Positions 42,241 to 59,471 of a DNA stretch of 64,000 nucleotides are shown one piece after another. The notes beneath the pieces are model-generated. The model searched no databases, had not been told where the DNA came from, and saw nothing but the letters and a program-made list of their open reading frames with translations. The position numbers were made by a program, and so were the translations under genes. The DNA comes from Clostridium sp. 'deep sea' (GTDB lineage Bacteria > Bacillota > UBA994 > PWPR01). Numbering within the stretch: position 1 is the first letter of the stretch; each line of letters opens with the position of its first letter. The DNA is taken from contig NZ_CP063353.1 in assembly GCF_014931565.1 (NCBI RefSeq), forward strand, positions 3,286,001 through 3,350,000, in the 5' to 3' direction.

Positions 42241-42280
42241 AATAATCAACCATTGGGGACAGTCCCCTTTGGTTGATTAT
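42241..42280. repeat. GGGGACAGTCCCC palindromic repeat, copy 2
   Basis: ATAATCAACCA / TGGTTGATTAT arms flank TTGGGGACAGTCCCCTT, giving an almost perfect 40-bp palindrome between two facing genes. It may act as a bidirectional terminator. Confidence 0.85.
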
Positions 42281-42433: not shown

Positions 42434-45187
42434 TTAGTCAATAAGCTCTATTTTTTGACCATCTTTGCTTCCGACAATAACTTGTAGTAATTCAGCAAAT
42501 TGGTAATAACCTTTTTGAGGTTGTTCACTGCTAATGAAGATTTCACCGGTTATACAATCATAACGTTCAAGTTTTCTGTCTTGATTTTGATAGAGAATAT
42601 ATCGTCCACTTACACTAACAGTTGGTAAAATCTCGTTATTTTCATATAACTCGATTTCTTTATATACTTGCCATTTATCGACGTTTGTAAAATTATTACT
42701 TAGAAAAGCAATTGAATAGTCACTTATATAACTAATCGAACCATCTCTAAGCCATTTAATACTTAATGAACTTTCTAAGGAGTTGTGAATGTGGGTATAA
42801 CTAATGGAATAATCAGGTTCAATAATTCCTAAGGTTTGACCTTCTTGATTACCGATGACAATAAAAGCAATTTTATTGTCATACATTGAAAAAACAGGTT
42901 TAATACCCCTTATATTAGTTTCAAAATCTTTTTTATAATTAACTTGTATTGTTTCATTAGTAATTAAATCATGTACAAAAAGTTCGTCACTAGCTGTTGT
43001 GTACACAAGCTTAGTTCCATTTGAGGAAATATCATAATCATACATTGTATTTGAGTCATAGTCTTTAACAATTTTCACTGTTTTTTCTACTTCATCATAG
43101 AGTAATAATTTATCAGCAGTGATTACTGCTAATAAGTCGTTGTTTAACCTTTTTACATTGTGTGGGCCTGTACTAGCAGTACCTTTGATGTTAAGGTCAT
43201 GTACCTTTTCTTTTATTAAATCGTAACACAATACTTTTGAGGAGTCGTAAAAAACAATAATACTTTGTTTAAATATATAGAATTCTTCAACATGCAAATC
43301 TTGATCACATAAATAATTATTTAGTGGTGCCAGTTGAGTACTTAAATCCATTAAGTCAATAGTATTAGATTGTAAAAGCGATCCACTTAATAATGTTCCT
43401 ATAACAAATTCCTTAGTATCTCGATTAAAAAATAAATAACTAGAATTGTCTTGGTACTCAACAATTGGCATAAATGATTGAACAGGGAGGCTTGTTAAAT
43501 CAACAGGCATAGCTTGTGCAACACGAGTTGTATTTTCATTGCTTACGTAGACATCACCTGTTTTAATATGTTGAACTTTAAAATATGAATCTACATCACA
43601 ATAGGCGATATAGTCTCCTGAAATAGTTAATGTAAAATCAATACTTGTTGGAATCTCTCCCTGCGCTTGATAATAAGCAACATACTCACCTAAAACATAA
43701 AGAGCAGATAAATCATCCTTAGGAATTGCAACAATTTTAGAATCCCCAATGATTTTAGTAGAACCAGTTGTTCTTTCATTTTTTTTAAATATAGTAGCTA
43801 GTAAATAGTCTTGATTTCTAAAGTCACCGTATTTAATTAAACAATCAAAGCCAGACAGCGCTTCGTTTGTTTTAAATTCTTTAGTATAAATAAGCTCTAA
43901 ATCTTTAGTCAGATAAATGAGTAGTCCTTTAGTAAACTCAGTATTATATGCTAGTAAGGTAATCTCTTCTTCACCTTCACTGTAAAATATTGTATTTTCA
44001 TAGCCGTAATCTTCACCAATCTTCTGTATTTGTCTATATGTTGATTGAAGAGGTTGGTTTGAATCTTTACTATTAGTTTTGTTAATTGCTTTCGAGTTTA
44101 GAATATCGTTAGCATCATTAACATGCTTTTCCATTGCTATATTTTCTCTATCTATTTTGTTATTTTTATTAGCATCTGATATTAAAACAATAGTAAGAAC
44201 TACAATAACAGTAAGTCCTACAAGTCTAAGCTTCCCTGATAAATGTTTAAAGTTTAGTGCAGATTTAACTCGTGACTTTATATTTTTCTCGCCAAAGGCA
44301 ACTAGCGGATTTATGCTCCAATGATTTTGATGAATGGACATCTTTAGTAAAGTTTTGGCATAATCTGTTTGATGTTTCTTATCATATTTCCGAAGAGCCT
44401 TTTCGTCACAAGAGAGCTCCATATCCTTCATGGCAACAAAAAAAGCTAGCCAAACAAGCGGATTAAACCAATGTATGCAGACCAGTAGTAATGACACTGG
44501 TTTTGCTAGATGGTCAAGTCTTTTTAAATGAGTTTGTTCATGAGCTATGATATAGCCTAGTTCTTCTTCATTAAACTTAAAATAGCTTGGAATAATAATT
44601 TTAGGATTAATCAATCCATGAATGATTGGAGAATCTACTTTATCAGACATATAAATAGGAGTCTTTAAATCGTCTTTAAATTTTGTAGCATCAATAAGTA
44701 ATCTATAAAAATGAATATAATTTATTAGGAAAAACAAGAATAAAGCACACATAACAAATAGCCAGATAATTTTAACTATGTGAAAAAGTTTGTTAGTAAC
44801 ACTAACTTGAGTATCTTCAGCGATGTTTTGTTTATGATTAAATCTATCAGTTGCTATATTATTAGAATTAATCTGTGAATCTTTAATTATAGGCGATTCA
44901 TTGTAGATAGCATTATTGCTTAAGATAATTGGATCATTTTCTAGCGCTAAATCATTGTTGTTTATGGTTAAATTTACACTGTTTTTAAGATTAATTATAT
45001 TAAATATACTAAAATTACTTTCAATACTAACAGGCAATAAGAGTCTTAATAAAACTAGTGCCCATAAACTGTAAATAAAAGTTTTTGATAAGTGATGTTT
45101 TAATAATTGTCTTATCGCCAAAATGATGATAATAACAATAGAAGCAGAAAAGCTCATTGTTAATATAATTTGAAACATCTTAGACAC
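42434..45187 (-). CDS. M56 (BlaR1-type) membrane protease with propeller-like sensor domain
   Basis: The start is a GTG at 45187, 7 bp after GGAGG. The 917-residue protein has the M56 transmembrane metalloprotease domain in its first ~340 residues, with zinc motif H216-E217-x2-H220 (IAHEQTHLKRLDH), the second glutamate region MELSCDEKAL and four membrane helices. After the last helix (about 325-343) comes a ~570-residue extracytoplasmic region of repeated strands (SGDYIAYCD, NGTKLVYTT, SGRYILYQN), like a TolB/WD-type propeller. The BlaR1 penicillin-sensor domain is absent. Such proteins cleave their cognate BlaI repressor when triggered; the stimulus here is unknown. It forms an operon with the BlaI gene 29 bp upstream. 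Confidence 0.87.
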   Translation of the reverse strand: MSKMFQIILTMSFSASIVIIIILAIRQLLKHHLSKTFIYSLWALVLLRLLLPVSIESNFSIFNIINLKNSVNLTINNNDLALENDPIILSNNAIYNESPIIKDSQINSNNIATDRFNHKQNIAEDTQVSVTNKLFHIVKIIWLFVMCALFLFFLINYIHFYRLLIDATKFKDDLKTPIYMSDKVDSPIIHGLINPKIIIPSYFKFNEEELGYIIAHEQTHLKRLDHLAKPVSLLLVCIHWFNPLVWLAFFVAMKDMELSCDEKALRKYDKKHQTDYAKTLLKMSIHQNHWSINPLVAFGEKNIKSRVKSALNFKHLSGKLRLVGLTVIVVLTIVLISDANKNNKIDRENIAMEKHVNDANDILNSKAINKTNSKDSNQPLQSTYRQIQKIGEDYGYENTIFYSEGEEEITLLAYNTEFTKGLLIYLTKDLELIYTKEFKTNEALSGFDCLIKYGDFRNQDYLLATIFKKNERTTGSTKIIGDSKIVAIPKDDLSALYVLGEYVAYYQAQGEIPTSIDFTLTISGDYIAYCDVDSYFKVQHIKTGDVYVSNENTTRVAQAMPVDLTSLPVQSFMPIVEYQDNSSYLFFNRDTKEFVIGTLLSGSLLQSNTIDLMDLSTQLAPLNNYLCDQDLHVEEFYIFKQSIIVFYDSSKVLCYDLIKEKVHDLNIKGTASTGPHNVKRLNNDLLAVITADKLLLYDEVEKTVKIVKDYDSNTMYDYDISSNGTKLVYTTASDELFVHDLITNETIQVNYKKDFETNIRGIKPVFSMYDNKIAFIVIGNQEGQTLGIIEPDYSISYTHIHNSLESSLSIKWLRDGSISYISDYSIAFLSNNFTNVDKWQVYKEIELYENNEILPTVSVSGRYILYQNQDRKLERYDCITGEIFISSEQPQKGYYQFAELLQVIVGSKDGQKIELID

Positions 45188-45216
45188 TGTGTTACCTCCT
45201 TAATATATACTTGTGT

Positions 45217-45585
45217 TTATTCTGATACTTTTTCTATTTCCTCATCAATAATTGATTTTAATTCTAAAATTTCTTTTTTTGATAAAGTTTCCTTACTTAA
45301 GAAATTAGTTAAAAACATTTTAACAGAACCATTATATAATTTATTTAGATGATCTCGACTTTCTTTTAGGCAAACTTCATTTTTTGATACTAAATAAGTA
45401 ACAATTGCATTTTCGTTTTTGACAATGCCACGTTTTGATAAGCGTTTTATTGTTGTGTAAGTTGTAGATTTTTTCCATCCTAATTTTGATTCACATAGTT
45501 TAACTAATGCTGTTGAATTAATATGGCTACAATTCCATACTATTTCCATAAACTTGTATTCTGCATCAAAGACCTTGATATTCAT
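45217..45585 (-). CDS. BlaI/MecI-family repressor (cassette 1)
   Basis: The 122-residue winged-helix protein matches BlaI/MecI/CopY: EYKFMEIVWNCSHINSTALV at the N-terminus, the recognition helix GWKKSTTYTTIKRLSKRGIV and a C-terminal dimerisation helix ending ELKSIIDEEIEKVSE. The ATG is preceded by AGGGGG. It should repress its own operon through GGTCTA dyads at 45630-45675 and be cleaved by the adjacent M56 protease. No beta-lactamase is near. Confidence 0.9.
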   Translation of the reverse strand: MNIKVFDAEYKFMEIVWNCSHINSTALVKLCESKLGWKKSTTYTTIKRLSKRGIVKNENAIVTYLVSKNEVCLKESRDHLNKLYNGSVKMFLTNFLSKETLSKKEILELKSIIDEEIEKVSE

Positions 45586-45629
45586 AATAACCCCCTACTG
45601 ATTGAGTGTCATAAAATTCTAGGAAACTA

Positions 45630-45675
45630 AGGTCTAATTAATTAGACCTAAGTTCAAGTCTATTCTATTAGACCT
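45630..45675 (-). promoter_or_regulatory. BlaI-type operator pair of cassette 1
   Basis: AGGTCTAATTAATTAGACCT (45630-45649) is a perfect 20-bp palindrome, and AAGTCTATTCTATTAGACCT (45656-45675) is a near copy 26 bp away. Both lie just upstream of the minus-strand BlaI gene. The half-site GGTCTA recurs in the third cassette, not the second. Confidence 0.75.
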
Positions 45676-45714
45676 AGCGTGTCAATAAAATGTTCTCAAA
45701 CCTTAGAAATTTAT

Positions 45715-45757
45715 ATCAAATCAGCCAAAGGGGACTGTCCCCTTTGGCTGATTTGAT
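45715..45757. repeat. GGGGACTGTCCCC palindromic repeat, copy 3 (43 bp, perfect)
   Basis: ATCAAATCAGCCAAAGGGG and its inverse extend 21 bp either side of a single central T. It separates the divergent cassettes 1 and 2. Confidence 0.9.
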
Positions 45758-45780
45758 AGGTGTAGAAATAGTTCCAGCAG
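45756..45780 (+). pseudogene. 25-bp exact fragment of rlmD
   Basis: The 25 bases beginning ATAGGTGTAGAAATAGTT and ending CCAGCAG are identical to rlmD 30072-30096 (residues IGVEIVPA). The match starts within the last two bases of the palindromic repeat and ends abruptly. In RlmD these residues come directly before the part preserved at 40840-40975. Confidence 0.6.
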
Positions 45781-45819
45781 TCAAATAGCAATAATACCAA
45801 ACCTTTTGAGTTGAAAAAC

Positions 45820-45870
45820 TTGACAAATTCTTTCTACATTTGTAGTATAAGCACATACGACAATTGTAGA
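45820..45870 (+). promoter_or_regulatory. Promoter and BlaI-type operators of cassette 2
   Basis: TTGACA (45820-45825), 17 bp and TAGTAT (45843-45848) form the promoter. CTACATTTGTAG (45834-45845) covers the spacer and -10, and CGACAATTGTAGA (45858-45870) lies at the start of the transcript. Both are canonical TACA-TGTA BlaI/MecI boxes. Confidence 0.8.
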
Positions 45871-45884
45871 AAGAATGATGAAAA

Positions 45885-46247
45885 ATGAATTTAACAAATG
45901 CAGAAATGCTTATAATGAATTTATTATGGAATAACGGTCAATTAAGAGCTAATCAAATTTCAGAATATATGATCGATGAGAAGGGATGGAAGAAAAATAC
46001 AACATACACTTTGATTAATAGATTAGTTAAAAAAGGTGCTATTGAAAAAGTGAATCCAGGATTTTTATGTAGGCCATTAATACAAGTTGAGGAAGCTAGA
46101 ATTAAGGAAACAAGACAATTATTAGATAAAATATATAATGGTTCTTTTAAATTACTCGTTCAGAATTTCATACAAAATGAAGATTTAAGTAAAGATGATA
46201 TTGAAGAGATATTAAAGATGATTGATGAGGTAAAAAAGAATGAGTGA
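45885..46247 (+). CDS. BlaI/MecI-family repressor (cassette 2)
   Basis: The 120-residue protein has the BlaI winged helix (NAEMLIMNLLWNNGQLRANQI, GWKKNTTYTLINRLVKKGAI) and dimerisation tail (LSKDDIEEILKMIDEVKK). It overlaps the M56 gene by 8 bp, so the two are translationally coupled. The Shine-Dalgarno is weak (GAAAGAATGATG). Its promoter carries canonical TACA-TGTA boxes, unlike cassettes 1 and 3, which predicts a distinct DNA specificity. Confidence 0.9.
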   Translation: MNLTNAEMLIMNLLWNNGQLRANQISEYMIDEKGWKKNTTYTLINRLVKKGAIEKVNPGFLCRPLIQVEEARIKETRQLLDKIYNGSFKLLVQNFIQNEDLSKDDIEEILKMIDEVKKNE

Positions 46248-49197
46248 GATTTTTATTAAAATACTTAATTTAAGTATATTAGGTAGTTTTCTTGCATTGG
46301 CAGTATTAATTTTTAGAAGCTTATTTTATAAAAATATTAAAAAAAGTGTATTTTATCTCTTGTGGATTATTGTATTTGTAAAATTGATATGCCCTATAGA
46401 ATTTGGTGTACCAATGAAGGTGGATTTATTTGAATATAATACCACGTTTGGATTACAAGGTACTGATAACAATGCATTTATTAATGAAGAAGTACTGAGT
46501 ATTGATTCAAAAGCAGAGGATAATGCAGGTTTAAAAGAGATATTAAAGAATCAACCAGTTAAAAATAATATGAATCATTACGATGAAACAGTTGTTAAGG
46601 CTATACCAACGAGTAGCTCCTATTCTTTGTTGCAGGTTATTACATATATTTGGTTAAGTGGAGTTATATTGCTCATTGGCATTTTTGTTTTTTCTTACAT
46701 TAAAGGGTATTCAAAATTAAATATACAACTTATTGAGAGTGACAATGAAATATATCGTTTAGTGCAGGGTTCAAATATCAAGTTATATCGAGGGTGTGTT
46801 AATGGACCAATGGTTATTGGTATTTTTAACTCAAAGATTATATTGCCGTATAATCTTAATCAAGATAATAAACTTATTCAATATGCTTTAATCCATGAAA
46901 GACAACATTTAAAATTTTATGATAACACTATAAATGCTATACTGCTATTTATAGTACTGATTCATTGGTTTAACCCTTTGGTTTGGTTATCTTATTATTA
47001 TTTTAAACTTGACATAGAAGGTTTTTGCGATGAACGTGTTATTGCTCAAATTGGCGAGGGTAATAAAACAAATTATGCAGAAGCTATTATTCAATTTGCT
47101 AAAAATGAGCATAAATTATCGCCGTTATATATGTTGGCATTTGGTAAGAAAAATACAAAAAAACGTATAAAAGCAATATTAGCATATAAGTCATGGAAAT
47201 TGCCTTCAGTTATTGCTGCAATTATTATTGTTGCTCTTGTTAGTCTTGGGTTTATGACTCAAAGTGGATCTAATAGTTTTGGTGATGATGTTATAGAGAG
47301 TATTGAAGGTATGAAATCACAGAAAGCTCAATTAAGATTTGTAGCACTAGAGAATACTGATTATAAATTTTATGGAACATCGATATCGGATGGGTTAATA
47401 ACAATAACCAATGGTAAAGATAATAATGATAGATTATTTGGCTTTGCGAATACAAAAGGTGAGGTTGTCATAAAGCCTATTTATTTATCTACGCTTGGTG
47501 GATTTAGTGAAGGTTTAGCTTATGTGATTACTGAAAATAGACAAGCAAAATATATTGATAGCAAAGGGAAAGTTGTTATCGATAAAGTTAAGGGTAAACC
47601 ATTTTATAAGGGAGATATGTTTATAGATGGTTATGCAACGGTACGAACGGAAGAAGGTTCTTATGTGATAGATACAATGGGTCAAGTCATTTTAGAGCCA
47701 ACAGAAGTGAAATATCAATATACTAATCTTGGTAATGGATATTTTCAAAATGCAACATCCACTGTAACGAATGATTTAATTGGTGTTGTAGATATTTATG
47801 GAAATATAATTTATGAAGGTAAAGCAAGGTTTTATGGAATTGGTGACGGGGATACATGCTTTTATACTTTGGACGGAGAAGTTTTTGGTTTGATGGATAC
47901 AAGTAGTATGAAAGTTATAGAAAACCCTTTTTTCTATCCATTGAGTAAATTTAGTAATAATAAGGCTATTGTAGTGACACAAGATAACATCTTTTATATT
48001 ATCAATGAATTAGGAAAAAAAATTGTTAATTTAACAGAAAGGTATTCAGATATTGATCCATCAAAAGTCAGTTCATTAGGGGTTGCTAGATTTGCTTTAG
48101 GATTCACAAATGACAAAGGTGCTATCCTTATTGATGATGCTGGTGATATTATAATCAAGACAGAATATGATTACATAGGTAGCTTTGCAGACGAAAATAG
48201 TCAAATAGCTTTCTGTAAAAAGAATAATAAATACGGGTATATTAATTTAGAAGGTAATGAGTTACTTGAACCTGCTTATGATAGAATTACAAATGGTGAC
48301 GAGGGTAAAGGATTTGTGTTTATGGATCGTAAACCATATGTGTTTAGTTATAGTCAAAGTGACATAGCTACTAGCCCCTATAATATTATTGATGATGCAA
48401 TAGTAAATGAAGTTATTCTAAAAAAAGATTTTACGGGATTGTTTGATGAAGTAATCCATTTAGCAGGATTTTCATCTTCAACTATAGACTATTTTAGAAA
48501 TAGAATGGTTGGAACAACTGTTAATATTACTAAAGATTTATTTGAAATAAATTCTGCTAAAGTTGGTAGTAGTGTTACAATAATTAATCCAAAGTATCGT
48601 TATGTTAATATAGAAATGATAGAAGAAAAAACTCTTGGATGGTCTATAAATGTAGATAATCGTGAGTTTAAAGCCTTCATTCAAGTGTTAAATGACAGTG
48701 GAGAAGCTACTGGTAGTTATTTTGCATTATTTAGTGATTCCCTTTGGTTAGTCAATCTCTCTTGGGATCAAAAAGTTGTGATGAATATACTTGGAATGAC
48801 TGCTAAAGAAAATATGAAGATAAATCAGTATGATACTAATTCATATAACGATGCATCCATGAAAGTTATAGAAGATTCTGTGACTGCTTTTGGTTTGTCT
48901 TTAGAGTTTTCTTATTATGGAGATGATATTGGTGAATATGGACAATGGTATGAATTAGAAAAGTTAGTTGACAATACATGGTGTAAAATTCCTTTGACAG
49001 ATGATGAAGAAATGACATGGGATTCTATTGCCTATGAAGTAGGTAAGAATGAACCTAGAACTGAAAGGGTAGAGTGGTTTGGAGTTTATGGACAATTGAC
49101 ACAAGGGAAATATAGAATTATTAAATTATTTCATGATTTTAGAGAATCAGAAGATTATTCTAAATATTATCTTTCAGCAGAATTTATAATCGACTAG
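46240..49197 (+). CDS. M56 (BlaR1-type) membrane protease with WG-repeat sensor region
   Basis: The 985-residue protein has an M56 domain with H219-E220-x2-H223 (LIHERQHLKFYD) and HWFNPLVWLSYYYFKLDIEGFCDERV. After the last membrane helix (about 325-342) come WG-type repeats (about 390-700): GFANTKGEVVIKPIY, YIDSKGKVVIDKV, VIDTMGQVILEPTE, VDIYGNIIYEGKA and YINLEGNELLEPAYD. A final ~130-residue domain (from about 855) looks like a bacterial Ig-like fold (LEFSYYGDDIGEYGQWYELEK) also found in surface lipoproteins. No penicillin-binding domain. It should sense an extracellular ligand and cleave the overlapping BlaI protein. Confidence 0.87.
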   Translation: MSEIFIKILNLSILGSFLALAVLIFRSLFYKNIKKSVFYLLWIIVFVKLICPIEFGVPMKVDLFEYNTTFGLQGTDNNAFINEEVLSIDSKAEDNAGLKEILKNQPVKNNMNHYDETVVKAIPTSSSYSLLQVITYIWLSGVILLIGIFVFSYIKGYSKLNIQLIESDNEIYRLVQGSNIKLYRGCVNGPMVIGIFNSKIILPYNLNQDNKLIQYALIHERQHLKFYDNTINAILLFIVLIHWFNPLVWLSYYYFKLDIEGFCDERVIAQIGEGNKTNYAEAIIQFAKNEHKLSPLYMLAFGKKNTKKRIKAILAYKSWKLPSVIAAIIIVALVSLGFMTQSGSNSFGDDVIESIEGMKSQKAQLRFVALENTDYKFYGTSISDGLITITNGKDNNDRLFGFANTKGEVVIKPIYLSTLGGFSEGLAYVITENRQAKYIDSKGKVVIDKVKGKPFYKGDMFIDGYATVRTEEGSYVIDTMGQVILEPTEVKYQYTNLGNGYFQNATSTVTNDLIGVVDIYGNIIYEGKARFYGIGDGDTCFYTLDGEVFGLMDTSSMKVIENPFFYPLSKFSNNKAIVVTQDNIFYIINELGKKIVNLTERYSDIDPSKVSSLGVARFALGFTNDKGAILIDDAGDIIIKTEYDYIGSFADENSQIAFCKKNNKYGYINLEGNELLEPAYDRITNGDEGKGFVFMDRKPYVFSYSQSDIATSPYNIIDDAIVNEVILKKDFTGLFDEVIHLAGFSSSTIDYFRNRMVGTTVNITKDLFEINSAKVGSSVTIINPKYRYVNIEMIEEKTLGWSINVDNREFKAFIQVLNDSGEATGSYFALFSDSLWLVNLSWDQKVVMNILGMTAKENMKINQYDTNSYNDASMKVIEDSVTAFGLSLEFSYYGDDIGEYGQWYELEKLVDNTWCKIPLTDDEEMTWDSIAYEVGKNEPRTERVEWFGVYGQLTQGKYRIIKLFHDFRESEDYSKYYLSAEFIID

Positions 49198-49228
49198 TAA
49201 TATGAATAAAGAATATTAAATGATTGGT

Positions 49229-49275
49229 GTAAGCTTCTACAAACTGTTTAGCTATTACAGTAGCTTACGCTTTTT
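49229..49275 (+). terminator. Terminator of cassette 2
   Basis: GTAAGCT (49229-49235) and AGCTTAC (49262-49268) pair around a partly paired interior, followed by GCTTTTTG. Confidence 0.65.
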
Positions 49276-49357
49276 GTGTATTAAAGAAAACTTATACAGT
49301 AATTTAGTTGAACCAATCACTTACATGAGACTACCGTGTAAGTGTGTGGTAACTTAG

Positions 49358-49399
49358 AGAAGGAGAATTTATTAGAAACATTAAATTCTCCTTCTTTTA
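49358..49399. terminator. Second hairpin between facing genes
   Basis: AGAAGGAGAATTTA and TAAATTCTCCTTCT form a perfect 14-bp stem followed by TTTATCC. It lies between cassette 2 and the facing M50 gene; the rest of this 307-bp gap is empty. Confidence 0.55.
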
Positions 49400-49504
49400 T
49401 CCAGATATAAACAATTTCCTTGCTAAATCTACTTAATAATAAAAAGTAGATTAAAAAATGAACATGTCTATAATACGTAGATTTGTGATTAAAAAAATGG
49501 AACC

Positions 49505-50659
49505 TTAGATTTTTACTTCCTTGCTTGTTTGGTCTGAAATATCCATCAATTCTCGTTCCGCCTGAATATCACTTGCATACGGATAGGTTTTTGCACATTC
49601 TTCAAACTTTACTTTAACACGTTCTGCTTTTACAATATTCTTTTCTGATAGTAGGGCATATGAATACTCAGTTCGCAACACAGAAGGAAATGTTTTCATT
49701 GACCTCATGAATTTTTTTATTTTTGGGGTAAATAGCTGTGCCAAAACATCTGATCGGTTTTCGCCAATCAGTTCGCAGTAGACACAGTCACAAACCATTA
49801 AATTACGATGAAGCTCTACAATACCACTTTCAATTTCAAGAAGATGGTTTATGAGTTTATATGCTTGTGCAAAGTTTTGGCTATCTATCATACGGTTACA
49901 AGCAAATACACCCATTACAGCAACCATGCTGTTTTTCATTTTTTCGTCTGATGGAACAGCAAACCATTCATCAGGCATATCTTTAAGTCGTACTGCTTTT
50001 GTGAGTTTTTCATTTACTTTCATTTGCACCCAAAAGGAACGTTGGGCATCAGGGTTGCGACTCAATGCAAAAGCGTTGTAGCCATCATTATCAACTAGCC
50101 CCATTCGTATCGGAACGCCATTCATAATTGCAAAAATAAAGCCAATAGCAGTCATCATTAACATAACTGTAGAAATAAGCGGTACATTTTGAAAAATAAA
50201 GTAAAGGCTAAGAAAAATTAACCCTGTGATAATGTTCATAAATGAGCCACCAAGATTATAGAGCACCACAGGTATTTTGCCATCAACTAGATTGGGCGGA
50301 GCCATAAGGCATTGTCCACCTGTTCCAGCAATAGTAAGTCTTTTAAATTTAATTTGCTTCTTTTCTTTAACCCACATAAAACTCATAATGCGGAAAGAAC
50401 TAAAACTGTATCCGGTCAACAATCCAAATACAAGATGTCCTGCCTCATGAATGATTAAATGAAGAAAGATTGCAATAAACATTACAACTATTAAAGAGAA
50501 ATAGGATAGTAGCTTTTCTCCAAGTGATATATTTTCTGCTGCATTGGAATCCATATAGGTTGCTATTAATAAGCCACATATAGCACCTATAATTATAAAA
50601 AAAGCCATTCCGATGTACTTCTGCCATACAATCTTTTTCTTTTTTGGTTGTTTACTCAT
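49505..50659 (-). CDS. M50-family membrane zinc protease (site-2-protease-like)
   Basis: From the ATG at 50659 (AAAGGGA upstream) the protein has 384 residues. A zinc site H71-E72-A-G-H75 lies in a membrane helix (FLHLIIHEAGHLVFGL), and the second S2P motif NGVPIRMGLVDNDGYNAF has the third ligand aspartate near 205. About six membrane helices precede a ~170-residue helical cytoplasmic tail. M50 enzymes cut membrane-bound regulators after a first cleavage. Its place between M56/BlaI cassettes 2 and 3 suggests a second proteolytic step, but it is transcribed separately from both. Confidence 0.8.
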   Translation of the reverse strand: MSKQPKKKKIVWQKYIGMAFFIIIGAICGLLIATYMDSNAAENISLGEKLLSYFSLIVVMFIAIFLHLIIHEAGHLVFGLLTGYSFSSFRIMSFMWVKEKKQIKFKRLTIAGTGGQCLMAPPNLVDGKIPVVLYNLGGSFMNIITGLIFLSLYFIFQNVPLISTVMLMMTAIGFIFAIMNGVPIRMGLVDNDGYNAFALSRNPDAQRSFWVQMKVNEKLTKAVRLKDMPDEWFAVPSDEKMKNSMVAVMGVFACNRMIDSQNFAQAYKLINHLLEIESGIVELHRNLMVCDCVYCELIGENRSDVLAQLFTPKIKKFMRSMKTFPSVLRTEYSYALLSEKNIVKAERVKVKFEECAKTYPYASDIQAERELMDISDQTSKEVKI

Positions 50660-51077
50660 TTTTATTATCCCTTTCAAAATCCTTATAACGATTTTTGAAC
50701 TATATGTTAAATAATTTTAAGACTGCATGCAGTATTATAACATTTATACAGGATCCTAGTTTATGATATTGTGTCAAATCTAAGTTCGCTGGTAATATAT
50801 GAATTTTACAATAGTAAAGCAATATCTTCAAGAGTACAATTGTAAACATTAATGAATAATTATCCCATTTGTTCTGTGGTATTTTATTGCACTTAAGAAT
50901 GTGACGGAAATACAAGAACAATAAAAACAGCAATTAGTGATTGTATATATTGTTAGTTAAGAAAGCAATTATGACAAAATGCATGGTTTCTTTAAATTTA
51001 AGTAAAGTTTTATTAAATCAATATTGGTGTTTCTGTATTCAAACATTTAACGGTTACAAACTTTATGTAAAATTATA
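50660..51077. other. Divergent intergenic region, no gene seen
   Basis: About 420 AT-rich bases lie between the M50 gene and the cassette 3 promoter. A 77-codon minus-strand frame here has no ribosome site and no recognisable product. I see nothing else. Confidence 0.5.
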
Positions 51078-51135
51078 TTGACATTTTGGTCTATAAGATA
51101 TAGACTTATAGCTGCGGGTCTATAACTTATAGACC
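51078..51135 (+). promoter_or_regulatory. Promoter and operator pair of cassette 3
   Basis: TTGACA (51078-51083) starts the promoter. GGTCTATAAGATATAGAC (51088-51105) fills the spacer and -10, and GGTCTATAACTTATAGACC (51117-51135) lies just after it. The half-site GGTCTA matches the operators of cassette 1. Confidence 0.8.
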
Positions 51136-51148
51136 AAGGGGGTATAAC

Positions 51149-51511
51149 ATGATGGATTATAAACTTACAGAAAGTGAAAAAAAATTTGCGAACTTAATCT
51201 GGGAGAATGAGCCAATTGTTTCAGGTGACCTTGTGAAGTTATCTGAAAAAGATATGAAATGGAAAAAATCCACAACATATACAGTACTGAAGAAGTTATG
51301 TGAAAAGGGCATTTTTCAAAATGAGAAGGCTACCGTTACATCTTTAATTAATAAGGATGAATATAATGCCAAGCAAGGCATACGTTTTGTTGAGGATACC
51401 TTTGGAGGATCCTTACCGAAATTTCTAACAGCTTTTATTAGAACAAAAAAATTAAGTAATCGCCAAGCTGAAGAGTTGAAAAAGTTAATTGATGAACATA
51501 AGGAGGTATAA
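51149..51511 (+). CDS. BlaI/MecI-family repressor (cassette 3)
   Basis: The 120-residue winged-helix protein (EKKFANLIWENEPIVSGDLV, WKKSTTYTVLKKLCEKGIF, and tail SNRQAEELKKLIDEH) belongs to BlaI/MecI. AAGGGGG lies 6 bp before the first ATG; a second ATG follows at once. The stop is 2 bp before the M56 gene. It is closer in the recognition helix to the cassette 1 protein (GWKKSTTYTTIKRL) than to cassette 2, in line with the shared GGTCTA operators. Confidence 0.9.
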   Translation: MMDYKLTESEKKFANLIWENEPIVSGDLVKLSEKDMKWKKSTTYTVLKKLCEKGIFQNEKATVTSLINKDEYNAKQGIRFVEDTFGGSLPKFLTAFIRTKKLSNRQAEELKKLIDEHKEV

Positions 51512-51513
51512 CA

Positions 51514-53115
51514 ATGAGTGATTTGTTTTTTTCTGTTTTAAATATGAGCCTTACTGGAAGCTATGTAATTCTCTTTGTTATATTTATTAGGTTACTACTT
51601 AAAAAAGCTCCAAAGGTTATTTCCTATGCTTTGTGGGCGGTGGTTGCTTTTCGACTTATAATTCCATTCTCATTTGAGAGTATGTTTAGCCTTATGCCGT
51701 GGAATGCAAAAGCTGTGCCAATCCCCCATGATATCATCTATCAGCAAAGTTCACAGATTAATAGTGGGATAGAAGCAGTTGATTCATTTGTAAGTCAATT
51801 GATACCTAAATCGGCTACAGGTGCTAGTATTAATCCATTAAAATTCTATGCAGAAATAGGGACATATATTTGGGTTTTTGGAATTGTAGTCATACTTGCT
51901 TATAGCTACATATCCATTTTGATCTTAAAAAGACAGCTTAAAAGTGCAGAGTTAGTAGAAAACAATATTTTAGAAGCTAAGAATTTGAAAACTCCATTTG
52001 TATTAGGATTAATAAAACCGAAGATTTATTTGCCAGCTGGATTGAACGATGAAGAGAGAAACTATATTTTATTACACGAGCAGACTCATATTCAGAGAAA
52101 AGACAACGTAATAAAAATACTATCATTCTTTATATTAGCTATATATTGGTTTAATCCTCTTGTATGGGTTGCATTTATATTAATGGGCAGAGATATGGAG
52201 CTTTCTTGTGACGAACGAGTACTAAAAAAAATGAATGAAGATAATAAAAAAACGTATGCTAATTTGCTATTATCATTAGCTACGGGAAGTCATATTTTAA
52301 ATGCTACTCCTCTTGCCTTTAGCGAAGGGAATGTAAAAAGGAGGATTAAAAACGTCTTAAACTACAAAAAACCAAGTTTTATGGTCATTTTTTTCTCGAT
52401 CATTATTACAATAGCAATTGGGATTGGGCTTATAACAAACCCAATAAATACTACAAAAATCTCTGATACTAGAGATATTCTAGAGATATCTGAAAAATGG
52501 GCTGAGGAACTTAAAAATCGTGACGGTAAAGCAAGATACGAGCTTATGTCACCTGAATCTAAAGCTGATTATTACAATTCACTTGTTGATATTAATGGTG
52601 AAGAATATCCGTGGGTTATAGGATGTTCAAGTCCATATGTGGTAAGTTATGAAATAAAAGCAAGTGGTACAAGTGCAGTTATTACTTATATTACAGAGAC
52701 ATCTGAGCCTAAAGAATATATCTATCAAGAGCAATTATTTTTTGATAATCAAGGAGGAAAAACTTTTGTAAACAAGTGTAATGTTATAGTATCATATTTG
52801 CGAAAAGATTTATATGAAGAGGCAATTAAGATTCAAAAACAAGTTGAGGAAGGGCATCAGACTTGGCATTTAAGTTCCGAATCGGTAGTGTTAGAATTTG
52901 TTCACAGAGATTTGGGAGTGGAGGGCGGAGAAATTATTTCTTCATCAAGTAATAATGTTGTTTTCAAGAAAACTAATGGGGAGGAAATAAAAATTAAGTT
53001 ATACAGACCTATAAATATTAACAATGGTTTTTTGGCAATTTATGAGTATTCAATTGGTACAACTCATTATATATTGGATGATAATTACTTAGCACCACAA
53101 ACGTTTAGTAATTAG
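51514..53115 (+). CDS. M56 (BlaR1-type) membrane protease with short C-terminal sensor
   Basis: The 533-residue protein has an M56 domain with H188-E189-x2-H192 (LLHEQTHIQRKDN) and YWFNPLVWVAFILMGRDMELSCDERV. A last helix near 290-308 is followed by a ~220-residue extracytoplasmic domain. This begins DTRDILEISEKWAEELKNRDG and WVIGCSSPYVVSYEI, like the small NTF2-like or DUF4829-type domains seen on other M56 proteins. It lacks the BlaR1 penicillin-binding domain. GGAGG lies 6 bp before the ATG. Its target is the BlaI protein encoded 2 bp upstream. Confidence 0.87.
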   Translation: MSDLFFSVLNMSLTGSYVILFVIFIRLLLKKAPKVISYALWAVVAFRLIIPFSFESMFSLMPWNAKAVPIPHDIIYQQSSQINSGIEAVDSFVSQLIPKSATGASINPLKFYAEIGTYIWVFGIVVILAYSYISILILKRQLKSAELVENNILEAKNLKTPFVLGLIKPKIYLPAGLNDEERNYILLHEQTHIQRKDNVIKILSFFILAIYWFNPLVWVAFILMGRDMELSCDERVLKKMNEDNKKTYANLLLSLATGSHILNATPLAFSEGNVKRRIKNVLNYKKPSFMVIFFSIIITIAIGIGLITNPINTTKISDTRDILEISEKWAEELKNRDGKARYELMSPESKADYYNSLVDINGEEYPWVIGCSSPYVVSYEIKASGTSAVITYITETSEPKEYIYQEQLFFDNQGGKTFVNKCNVIVSYLRKDLYEEAIKIQKQVEEGHQTWHLSSESVVLEFVHRDLGVEGGEIISSSSNNVVFKKTNGEEIKIKLYRPININNGFLAIYEYSIGTTHYILDDNYLAPQTFSN

Positions 53116-56991: not shown

Positions 56992-57227
56992 ATTATAATT
57001 TCCTTTCATAGCCTATTAAAGTATATGGTTTATTTAGAGTAATGTGCCTGTACTTAAGCAGTAACAATAATATAAAAGATGTAAATCAATTATCTTTTGT
57101 AAATTCAAAGGATATTATCATCTAATATAGAATACATAAGTAATCACATGCCTTAAATTATCTTTAATTCCTAAAAACGGAATTGCACATAAGGTATTCA
57201 CACATATTACAGATAAGGAGATGTATT

Positions 57228-59471
57228 ATGAAAGTTATTGAGAAGCAAAAAATGAAGCCTGAACAAGATAAACTGTTAGTTAAAAAAACGGAGGTAAGAG
57301 ACCCTAATAAACTGGTTTTGAAACAAAGTGTACAAGCAATAAAATTACAAAGCACTGATTATGAACAAAGATATATGTGGAATGTATCGTTACCCGGTTG
57401 TGGATATGAGCCTGTATCTGTTTTAGAAAAAGATGGTTGCCTATACGCAGGAACAAACGGTTATGTTTATAAGTTAGATTTAAATGGAAATATCCTTGCT
57501 ACTAATGGATTACCTCATAGAGGGCATTGTGACATAAATTTAGCTATTACTAATGAACACTTGGTAGTGGGTACAAACGGATACGTGGTATTGGTAAATT
57601 TAAATAATTTCGGTAATACTAGCTGCAATATTAATGTTTCTTTGCCTGGTTGTGGACATGAAAAGGTTTCTGTTTTATATGATATTAATAGTAATTTCAT
57701 TTATGCAGGCTCAAATGGATATGTTTATAGATTAAATAACATAGGTATTGTTCTCTCAAGTAACTGGATGCCAGATAGGGGCCACGAAGAGGTTAGATTA
57801 GCATTAACTAGTAATCATTTAGTTGCAGGTACAAATGGTTATGTAGTTTTAATAGGTTTAAACGATTTTTCTCAAATTAATAGCAATAAAAACATTTCTT
57901 TACCAGGATGTGGCCATGAAATTGTATCTGTATTATTTTATAATAATTATATTTATGCTGGATCTAACGGATATGTATACAAAATGAATGCCAATGGTGG
58001 TGATGTTCAAACTAATAACTTACCAGATAGGGGCAATGAAGAAGTAAGATTAGCTATAAGTGAAAGTCACTTAATAGCAGGTACAAAGGGTTATGTTGTG
58101 TTGGTAGATTTAAATAACTTCTCAAGTACATCTGCTAATGTTAACGTATCTTTACCAAATTGTGGTCATGAAATTGTTTCAGTAGCACTCGATGAAAATA
58201 AAATTTATGCTGGTTCTAATGGTTATGCTTATGAAATAGCTGCCCGAACAGGACATGTATTGGTTTGTTATGGGCTTCCGGGGCTAAGTTTTCATGAGAT
58301 TAGATTCGATATTCACAATCATCAAATGTATATAGGCACAAATGGTTATTTGGCGGCTCCTGAGATAATTGAAAATTTAGATGTAGATTTAATTGCACAA
58401 GAAACAAATCAGTGGTGCTGGGCGGCCAGTGGTCAAATGGTCATGAGATATTTAGGTAAAGATATTAGTCAGTGTGAACAGGCAAACTATCGATTTGACC
58501 GTAATGATTGCTGTATAACATTTGCAAGACCAGTAGAGTGTATACGTCCTGGTAATCCAAATCTTCATCATTGGGGTTTTCATTATGAAAAAACTAAGTA
58601 TGGAACTGCTTTAAGTTTTGAACAACTTCAACAGCAAATTAATTCTGAAAAGCCTATTTTATTTTCATGGAAATGGACTGGTGGTGGAGGCCATTTAATG
58701 GTTTCAAAAGGCTACTCTAAGCTTTCTCAAATGGTTTTAGTTAATGATCCTTGGCCACCTAACAAAGGAAATATTAAATGGATATCTTATGGTGATTATG
58801 TCAGTGGAGGTAAACATCTACATGGCGTAGATACTTATAATATTTCTCAAGATGAACTCAAGGAGAGACCCCAAACTATGAATAATAAAATAGTAATAAC
58901 AACCGCTACATATGATAGCTCTCAAGAAGCGGCTCTTAATGGTTTAAATAGGTTTATGGTATTAGTTAATGAACATAATTATCATGAAATGGGATTTAAT
59001 CAATTAATCAAAAATAGAGAAGAGTTGGAGTTAGCTGATAAATTAGATATTTTCTTTGTAAGGCATGATCACCTAAGAGATTTTGGTAGAGGTGATAAGG
59101 CAACAAAATTACTTCTTAATATGAATGAGCATATATATTTGGTTAAACATCAAAGCAAAGTTGTCACTGCAGTTACAACTCAACTAATAAATGACTGTTG
59201 GCAGGTAAAAAGCCTTGGAGATTCACACCTAAGCAAAGACATAGCTACTGCCTTAAAACAGTGTGAAAATGAAAGTACATACATGCTTGTGACCATACCT
59301 AGTTTACATAAAGTATTTTTAGGCATTAAAGAAGGAGAGAATTTAAGCCTCATACAGTTGTTAAATGATAATTTAAATAACTATCAAAAACAAGATGCAA
59401 GAGAAGTCTTTTATAGCTTACAAAGCGACCCTACTTTTGATCAAATACTAAAAGATGAAGATCTTGAATAG
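57228..59471 (+). CDS. Beta-propeller/papain-like cysteine protease fusion
   Basis: The start is ATG 57228, 7 bp after AAGGAG; an earlier in-frame ATG at 57183 lacks a site. The product has 747 residues and no signal peptide. Residues ~50-385 contain about 86-residue repeats with SLPGCGHE, YAGSNGYVYK, LPDRGHEEVRLA and AGTNGYVVLV motifs, four SLPGCG-type units, likely a propeller. Residues ~390-545 are a C39/C70 (AvrRpt2-like) papain domain: TNQWCWAAS with Cys397, GGGGHLMVSKGY with His489, and NDPWPP with Asn506/Asp507. A ~190-residue C-terminal domain is unrecognised. It could act inside the cell on host or self proteins, or be exported by a route not visible here. Confidence 0.83.
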   Translation: MKVIEKQKMKPEQDKLLVKKTEVRDPNKLVLKQSVQAIKLQSTDYEQRYMWNVSLPGCGYEPVSVLEKDGCLYAGTNGYVYKLDLNGNILATNGLPHRGHCDINLAITNEHLVVGTNGYVVLVNLNNFGNTSCNINVSLPGCGHEKVSVLYDINSNFIYAGSNGYVYRLNNIGIVLSSNWMPDRGHEEVRLALTSNHLVAGTNGYVVLIGLNDFSQINSNKNISLPGCGHEIVSVLFYNNYIYAGSNGYVYKMNANGGDVQTNNLPDRGNEEVRLAISESHLIAGTKGYVVLVDLNNFSSTSANVNVSLPNCGHEIVSVALDENKIYAGSNGYAYEIAARTGHVLVCYGLPGLSFHEIRFDIHNHQMYIGTNGYLAAPEIIENLDVDLIAQETNQWCWAASGQMVMRYLGKDISQCEQANYRFDRNDCCITFARPVECIRPGNPNLHHWGFHYEKTKYGTALSFEQLQQQINSEKPILFSWKWTGGGGHLMVSKGYSKLSQMVLVNDPWPPNKGNIKWISYGDYVSGGKHLHGVDTYNISQDELKERPQTMNNKIVITTATYDSSQEAALNGLNRFMVLVNEHNYHEMGFNQLIKNREELELADKLDIFFVRHDHLRDFGRGDKATKLLLNMNEHIYLVKHQSKVVTAVTTQLINDCWQVKSLGDSHLSKDIATALKQCENESTYMLVTIPSLHKVFLGIKEGENLSLIQLLNDNLNNYQKQDAREVFYSLQSDPTFDQILKDEDLE

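Follow-up and report, generated by a model that had tools for sequence, protein, structure and literature searches.

Three neighboring BlaI/M56 cassettes of Clostridium sp. 'deep sea' look like independent, self-regulated switches with exchanged outer domains

BlaR1-type machinery is used by staphylococci to sense penicillin, and BlaR1 has so far been known almost exclusively for penicillin sensing. The DNA analyzed here is a stretch of 64,000 nucleotides from Clostridium sp. 'deep sea' (contig NZ_CP063353.1, positions 3,286,001 to 3,350,000), which is called the window below and whose own numbering is used for coordinates. At 42434-53115 it carries three complete cassettes, each consisting of a BlaI repressor and an M56 membrane protease of the BlaR1 type, as established by open reading frame (ORF) calls and Pfam. 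We put at about even the chance that each cassette is an independent, self-contained BlaR1-type switch whose induced product is the ectodomain, which would then be sensor and effector in one. The genome is a single contig of 3,831,732 bp. It contains seven M56 genes, three of them in this cluster, and all seven have a BlaI gene near them (an eighth BlaI match is weak). The genes of the three cassettes, with protein lengths in amino acids (aa), are as follows.

42434..45187, (-) strand: cassette 1 M56 sensor-protease, 917 aa; Pfam Peptidase_M56, 179.6 bits; outer domain of ~583 aa
45217..45585, (-) strand: cassette 1 BlaI repressor, 122 aa; Pfam Penicillinase_R, 74.7 bits; cleavage-site-like N-F (alignment)
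45885..46247, (+) strand: cassette 2 BlaI repressor, 120 aa; Pfam Penicillinase_R, 95.8 bits; cleavage-site-like N-F
46240..49197, (+) strand: cassette 2 M56 sensor-protease, 985 aa; Pfam M56, 148.2 bits; outer domain of ~648 aa
51149..51511, (+) strand: cassette 3 BlaI repressor, 120 aa; Pfam Penicillinase_R, 75.5 bits; cleavage-site-like A-F
51514..53115, (+) strand: cassette 3 M56 sensor-protease, 533 aa; Pfam M56, 209.1 bits; outer domain of 228 aa

All six matches lie above the Pfam cut-offs (22.6 bits for Penicillinase_R and 31 bits for M56), which is in agreement with an earlier note on this DNA, made from the letters alone, that had placed three repressor-protease pairs here. The cassette 2 BlaI matched the MecI structure 1okr with E=4.3e-19, and the cassette 3 M56 matched the BlaR1 structure 8exs with E=5e-9. 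When the zinc-site and other key M56 residues were mapped from BlaR1 (PMC9834060), the HEXXH, E..D, Y and R residues were found to be invariant in 91 of the 91 M56 proteins compared, all three cassettes included, and the catalytic residues of the cassettes are thus intact. The Phe at P1' is nearly as constant, being present in the M56 self-cleavage loop ([A]F) of 89/91 proteins and at the BlaI site (AF) of 84/87.

The likeness to BlaR1 ends with the membrane-protease half. The match to the NCBIfam BlaR1 model (blaR1_generic) covered no more than positions 6-330 of 585 and scored far below the cut-off, and no penicillin-binding domain was found in the three cassettes with either Pfam or this model, so that the earlier claim of outer regions without a penicillin-binding sensor holds. 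Since the core and the repressor are homologous to BlaR1 and BlaI, the proteins might still be beta-lactam sensors with a divergent fold, which respond indirectly to beta-lactam damage, for example through muropeptides, and which protect the wall. We regard this as improbable, because no penicillin-binding Pfam family was detected among the 86 outer domains scanned here and in related loci either, and no beta-lactamase or penicillin-binding protein (PBP) was found in the genome under the operators of cassettes 1-3, weak sites being possible.

The three outer domains measure about 583, 648 and 228 aa, close to the earlier estimates of about 570, 640 and 220 aa. That of cassette 1, which had been described as propeller-like, is an orphan and weakly propeller-like at best: it has no Pfam match and no PDB match, a search of 399 genomes gave one weak match to a stand-alone lipoprotein, and profile comparison showed no relation to the lipoproteins of the cassette at 3.666 Mb of the same genome. 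A single-sequence structural model of this domain was discarded as unusable, with a predicted local distance difference test (pLDDT) value of 34.5. The cassette 2 domain consists, as had been noticed, of WG repeats (WG_beta_rep, 60.5 bits in Pfam) and a final domain, which proved to be a C-terminal Big_14 (54.1 bits) following an unknown stretch. In other genomes, the relatives of Big_14 are for the most part lipoproteins that stand alone. We considered these as detached effectors of cassette-2-like systems and rejected them, as they are mostly not beside BlaI/M56 and no operators could be seen by eye. The cassette 3 domain aligns with the outer domains of five other M56 proteins at 22-24% identity. 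In a modest-confidence model (pLDDT 56), its better-modelled first half resembles NTF2-like proteins by fold search (E ~0.005-0.01), and the matches include the sensor ectodomain of RsgI9 (PDB 7sjy, E ~0.01).

In clostridia, a pattern of a constant core with exchanged outer domains was found in a survey of 80 related loci, which started from cassette 3 and favors its core type. BlaI lies beside M56 in 76 of the 80 loci, and only 19 of 81 M56 genes have a next gene on the same strand within 60 bp, which makes the two-gene unit the rule. Two M56 genes occur in five of the 80 loci, so the clustering is not unique to the window. The cassette 3 core is ~65-75% identical to the cores on about nine other contigs (one of Lederbergia), and according to BLAST the outer domains there are unrelated to its own. 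Outer-domain homology was detected in only 15 of the 75 pairs with a core identity of at least 60%. Eight Pfam families cover a minority of the 86 scanned outer domains, with 21 member matches to DUF4825, DUF4829, DUF4830, DUF5301 and Big_14; most of them, and that of cassette 1, belong to no Pfam family. The Pfam scans and the comparison of cores with outer domains therefore support the earlier proposal of modular extracellular sensing through sensors other than penicillin-binding ones. No earlier account of M56 outer-domain diversity was found in the open-licence literature, subscription journals being outside the search. BlaI/M56 proteolytic induction, paired operators and small regulons are already known. 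What is new is the exchange of outer domains, together with the operator code and the pattern of the sensor as product.

Each blaI gene is preceded by a promoter of the form TTGACA-17-TAGACT/TAGTAT, with a palindrome in the spacer that extends to the -10 box; 24-29 bp farther on, the palindrome occurs a second time. The predicted operators are the following.

45657..45676, (-) strand: cassette 1 predicted operator 1, GTCTAATAGAATAGAC, between -35 TTGACA and -10 TAGACT
45630..45649, (-) strand: cassette 1 predicted operator 2, perfect palindrome AGGTCTAATTAATTAGACCT
45832..45847, (+) strand: cassette 2 predicted operator 1, TTCTACATTTGTAGTA, in the spacer of TTGACA-17-TAGTAT
45856..45871, (+) strand: cassette 2 predicted operator 2, TACGACAATTGTAGAA
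51088..51106, (+) strand: cassette 3 predicted operator 1, GGTCTATAAGATATAGACT, in the spacer of TTGACA-17-TAGACT
51117..51135, (+) strand: cassette 3 predicted operator 2, GGTCTATAACTTATAGACC

The half-sites differ, being TCTAAT in cassette 1, TCTACA in cassette 2 and TCTATA in cassette 3, and among the three only cassette 2 has the classical TACAnnTGTA. The paired-palindrome layout is common in the survey: of 87 upstream regions, taken from the 80 loci of public genomes and the cassettes of this genome, 58 score above the 99th percentile of 261 dinucleotide shuffles and 50 above their maximum. The recognition helices of the three BlaI proteins also differ, with the following residues in cassette 3 numbering.

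Cassette 1 BlaI: I47 K48 R49 R53
Cassette 2 BlaI: I47 N48 R49 K53
Cassette 3 BlaI: L47 K48 K49 K53

Among the BlaI proteins of 68 cassettes (those of the window and of loci L036-L154), residue 48 co-varies with C/T, both 49 and 53 with the base that follows and residue 47 with the spacing, and these columns outrank all others of BlaI. In a tree built from the M56 cores, independent contrasts lie in the expected direction on average, the supported contrasts being too few and the individual tests not significant. Residues 47, 48, 49 and 53 may thus form a recognition code for the family, and the three BlaI proteins of the window carry three different residue sets, each fitting its own operator. 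Because each cassette has its own operator code, the three are better read as independent switches than as one pathway. The word array in the earlier note is a loose one in this respect; judged by their operators, the cassettes look like orthogonal, self-regulated switches.

This interpretation is in agreement with pattern-based operator scans of the genome (3.83 Mb). The cassette 1 pattern GTCTANNNNNNTAGAC has exact matches at its two own sites and at two positions within ORFs, the sole other exact match of the cassette 2 pattern is within an ORF, and the cassette 3 operators are found only at their two own sites with up to one mismatch. Matches with one mismatch are not enriched over reversed-pattern controls (64 for cassette 1, compared with 76 for its control). 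No further promoters with cassette 1-3 operators were detected in the genome by these scans, in which the one-mismatch matches of cassette 1 were partly inspected. The earlier note had remarked that no obvious target is nearby. None was seen, and the likely answer is that the cassettes' own promoters are the only ones in the genome that carry the operators. In the other surveyed cassettes, no extra operators were found within 10 kb except two weak A/T-rich matches in locus L079.

Three further cassettes of this genome have homologous outer domains or lipoproteins as separate genes. At 3.666 Mb (L038, G000:C1:3660000-3675000), an M56 gene without an outer domain is followed, in the blaI-M56 operon, by a gene for a 507-aa lipoprotein. 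Upstream there are three paralogues of the latter with 56-60% identity, and all three have the same operator pair in front of them; the remaining genome matches of this operator that were inspected are within ORFs. At 3.358 Mb (L036:6054-7685), there are two secreted paralogues of the neighboring M56's outer domain, and the promoter of the first is identical to the blaI promoter at 42/56 positions, both sites included. At 3.433 Mb there is one neighboring outer-domain paralogue, but a hairpin resembling a terminator lies between the two, and no operator was seen. In the survey, the separate next gene of loci L083 and L099 corresponds to the outer domain that is fused to M56 in L109 and L096. 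Taken together, the self-only regulon, the lipoprotein paralogues behind the same operators and the split genes of L083 and L099 suggest that the outer domain itself is the product.

If so, two BlaI dimers would sit on the private operator pair seen upstream of each cassette and cover the promoter of its own blaI-M56 operon. By analogy with BlaR1, a ligand or an envelope state felt by the outer domain would activate the M56 protease in the membrane, which would cleave itself at the loop site [A]-F and cut BlaI at the matching A/N-F site. The operon would be released, and the main new product would be a membrane protein with a large outer domain that may bind or neutralize the stimulus, a role which beta-lactamase-like proteins have in the classical bla system. 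Three operator codes would prevent cross-talk among the switches, and the same logic would apply elsewhere in the genome with the domain detached as lipoproteins.

Several points weigh against the outer domain as product. The operator scans would miss single, weak or degenerate sites, and M56 could have further protein substrates. A neighboring homologue of the attached outer domain was found in 0/80 other loci and beside three cassettes of this genome only, so that a general rule of an outer-domain homologue next door was dropped. In C. thermocellum, a published study reports that BlaI_0696 has three target operons, including that of a separate hypothetical protein (PMC8457756). It could therefore be proposed that the cassettes are conventional sensors with a separate regulon, in which BlaI represses further effectors via degenerate, single or shared sites and autoregulation makes up one part of the circuit. 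Besides BlaI_0696, the cassette at 3.666 Mb, with three extra promoters that carry its operator pair, speaks for such a regulon. However, these known extra targets carry the same clear operator pair, which was seen nowhere else in the genome for cassettes 1-3 nor near the other surveyed cassettes beyond the two weak matches mentioned above, and we consider a separate regulon unlikely, though it is the alternative to be taken most seriously.

Proteolysis could also be the output, if the induced M56 cuts other proteins of the membrane or cytoplasm, while the cleavage of BlaI does no more than amplify the supply of M56. The self-only regulon of cassettes 1-3 and the complete retention of the catalytic residues would fit this as well. 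However, the outer domains vary while the protease is constant, and the matching sites of the loop (F in 89/91) and of BlaI (F in 84/87) indicate that BlaI is the selected substrate, which makes proteolysis as output rather improbable. We retain the ectodomain as the candidate product. A broader and more tentative generalization, to which we give somewhat less than an even chance, is that M56/BlaI is a general sensing chassis on which outer domains are freely swapped and whose product is the outer domain, attached or as a lipoprotein. The classical penicillin system would then be one case, and a short BlaI residue code would keep the switches apart. If the core is such a plug-in chassis, many clostridial genes annotated as beta-lactam sensors bear the wrong name, and their stimuli are still to be found. 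Given the operator code and the swaps that occur in nature, chimeric sensors lend themselves to direct tests, and the rule that the sensor equals the product, if true, predicts which lipoprotein families are effectors.

Two other features lie among the cassettes.

49505..50677, (-) strand: M50-like membrane peptidase, judged outside the system; below-cut-off Pfam M50 matches
45714..45758, no strand: perfect hairpin like a repetitive extragenic palindrome (REP), with 22-nt arms, 100% complementary, set between the promoters of cassettes 1 and 2, which are divergent

The earlier note had combined the three cassettes and an M50 enzyme between cassettes 2 and 3 into one modular sensing array with possible two-step proteolysis. 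The gene is real and its position would suit such an array, but its M50 match is weak. Upstream of it, at 50807-50846, there is a TACAATTGTA palindrome and, at a distance of 28 bp, a near copy of it, a pair that may be a BlaI-type site or chance. Chance alone would give 2.3 TACANNTGTA palindromes per window, and the geometry of the pair is unlike the spacer layout of the operators. An M50 relative is present in 0/80 related BlaI/M56 loci, and none of five loci with M50 relatives has BlaI/M56. Co-conservation was thus not seen, the M50 gene was rejected as a cassette partner, and we judge a joint array highly improbable.

A REP-like palindrome, (C)CAAAGGGGACNGTCCCCTTTGG, occurs at 42255, 45730, 53252, 55174 and 56477, three of the copies marking the edges of cassette units, and a gene that by eye resembles a REP-associated transposase lies at L038:13849-14652. 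At 57183-59471, a 762-aa protein appears by eye to have repeats of a propeller-like unit and, after them, a segment like a cysteine peptidase.

The BlaI/MecI family has dyad operators over its own promoter. All three BlaI proteins of the window, with a Penicillinase_R domain above the cut-off, show the same arrangement. With BlaR1/BlaI and MecR1/MecI of staphylococci and Bacillus licheniformis the cassettes have in common the M56 core with HEXXH, E..D, Y and R and the adjacent BlaI. They differ from BlaR1/MecR1 in that a penicillin-binding sensor is absent, neither a beta-lactamase nor a PBP could be found as a target, and the operators of cassettes 1 and 3 are changed. The product of the classical bla system is a beta-lactamase. 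The sensor of BlaR1 is similar to beta-lactamases of class D (PMC7593790). In that system, too, sensor and product thus have a fold in common. Matching cleavage sites in the loop and in BlaI, with Phe at P1', are also common to the classical systems (PMC9834060) and, as read from sequence, to the present ones.

M56 proteins fused to DUF4825, DUF4829, DUF4830, DUF5301 or Big_14 in Pfam represent the same core with a non-penicillin outer domain. RsgI9 of C. thermocellum is an anti-sigma factor and not an M56 protease. Its ectodomain (PDB 7sjy) appears to be like the first half of the cassette 3 domain at the level of the fold (pLDDT 56, E ~0.01). According to the C. thermocellum study (PMC8457756), BlaI_1845 controls its own operon only, through two pairs of inverted repeats with four half-sites in DNA affinity purification sequencing (DAP-seq). 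The BlaI_1845 and BlaI_0696 systems have two pairs of inverted repeats (GACTAT / GTCTAT) before their own operon and very small, sometimes self-only regulons with different motifs, as is the case here. These systems were read by the authors of that study as beta-lactam responses, whereas the outer domains found here are unrelated to penicillin-binding proteins, and three cassettes with three operator codes stand side by side.

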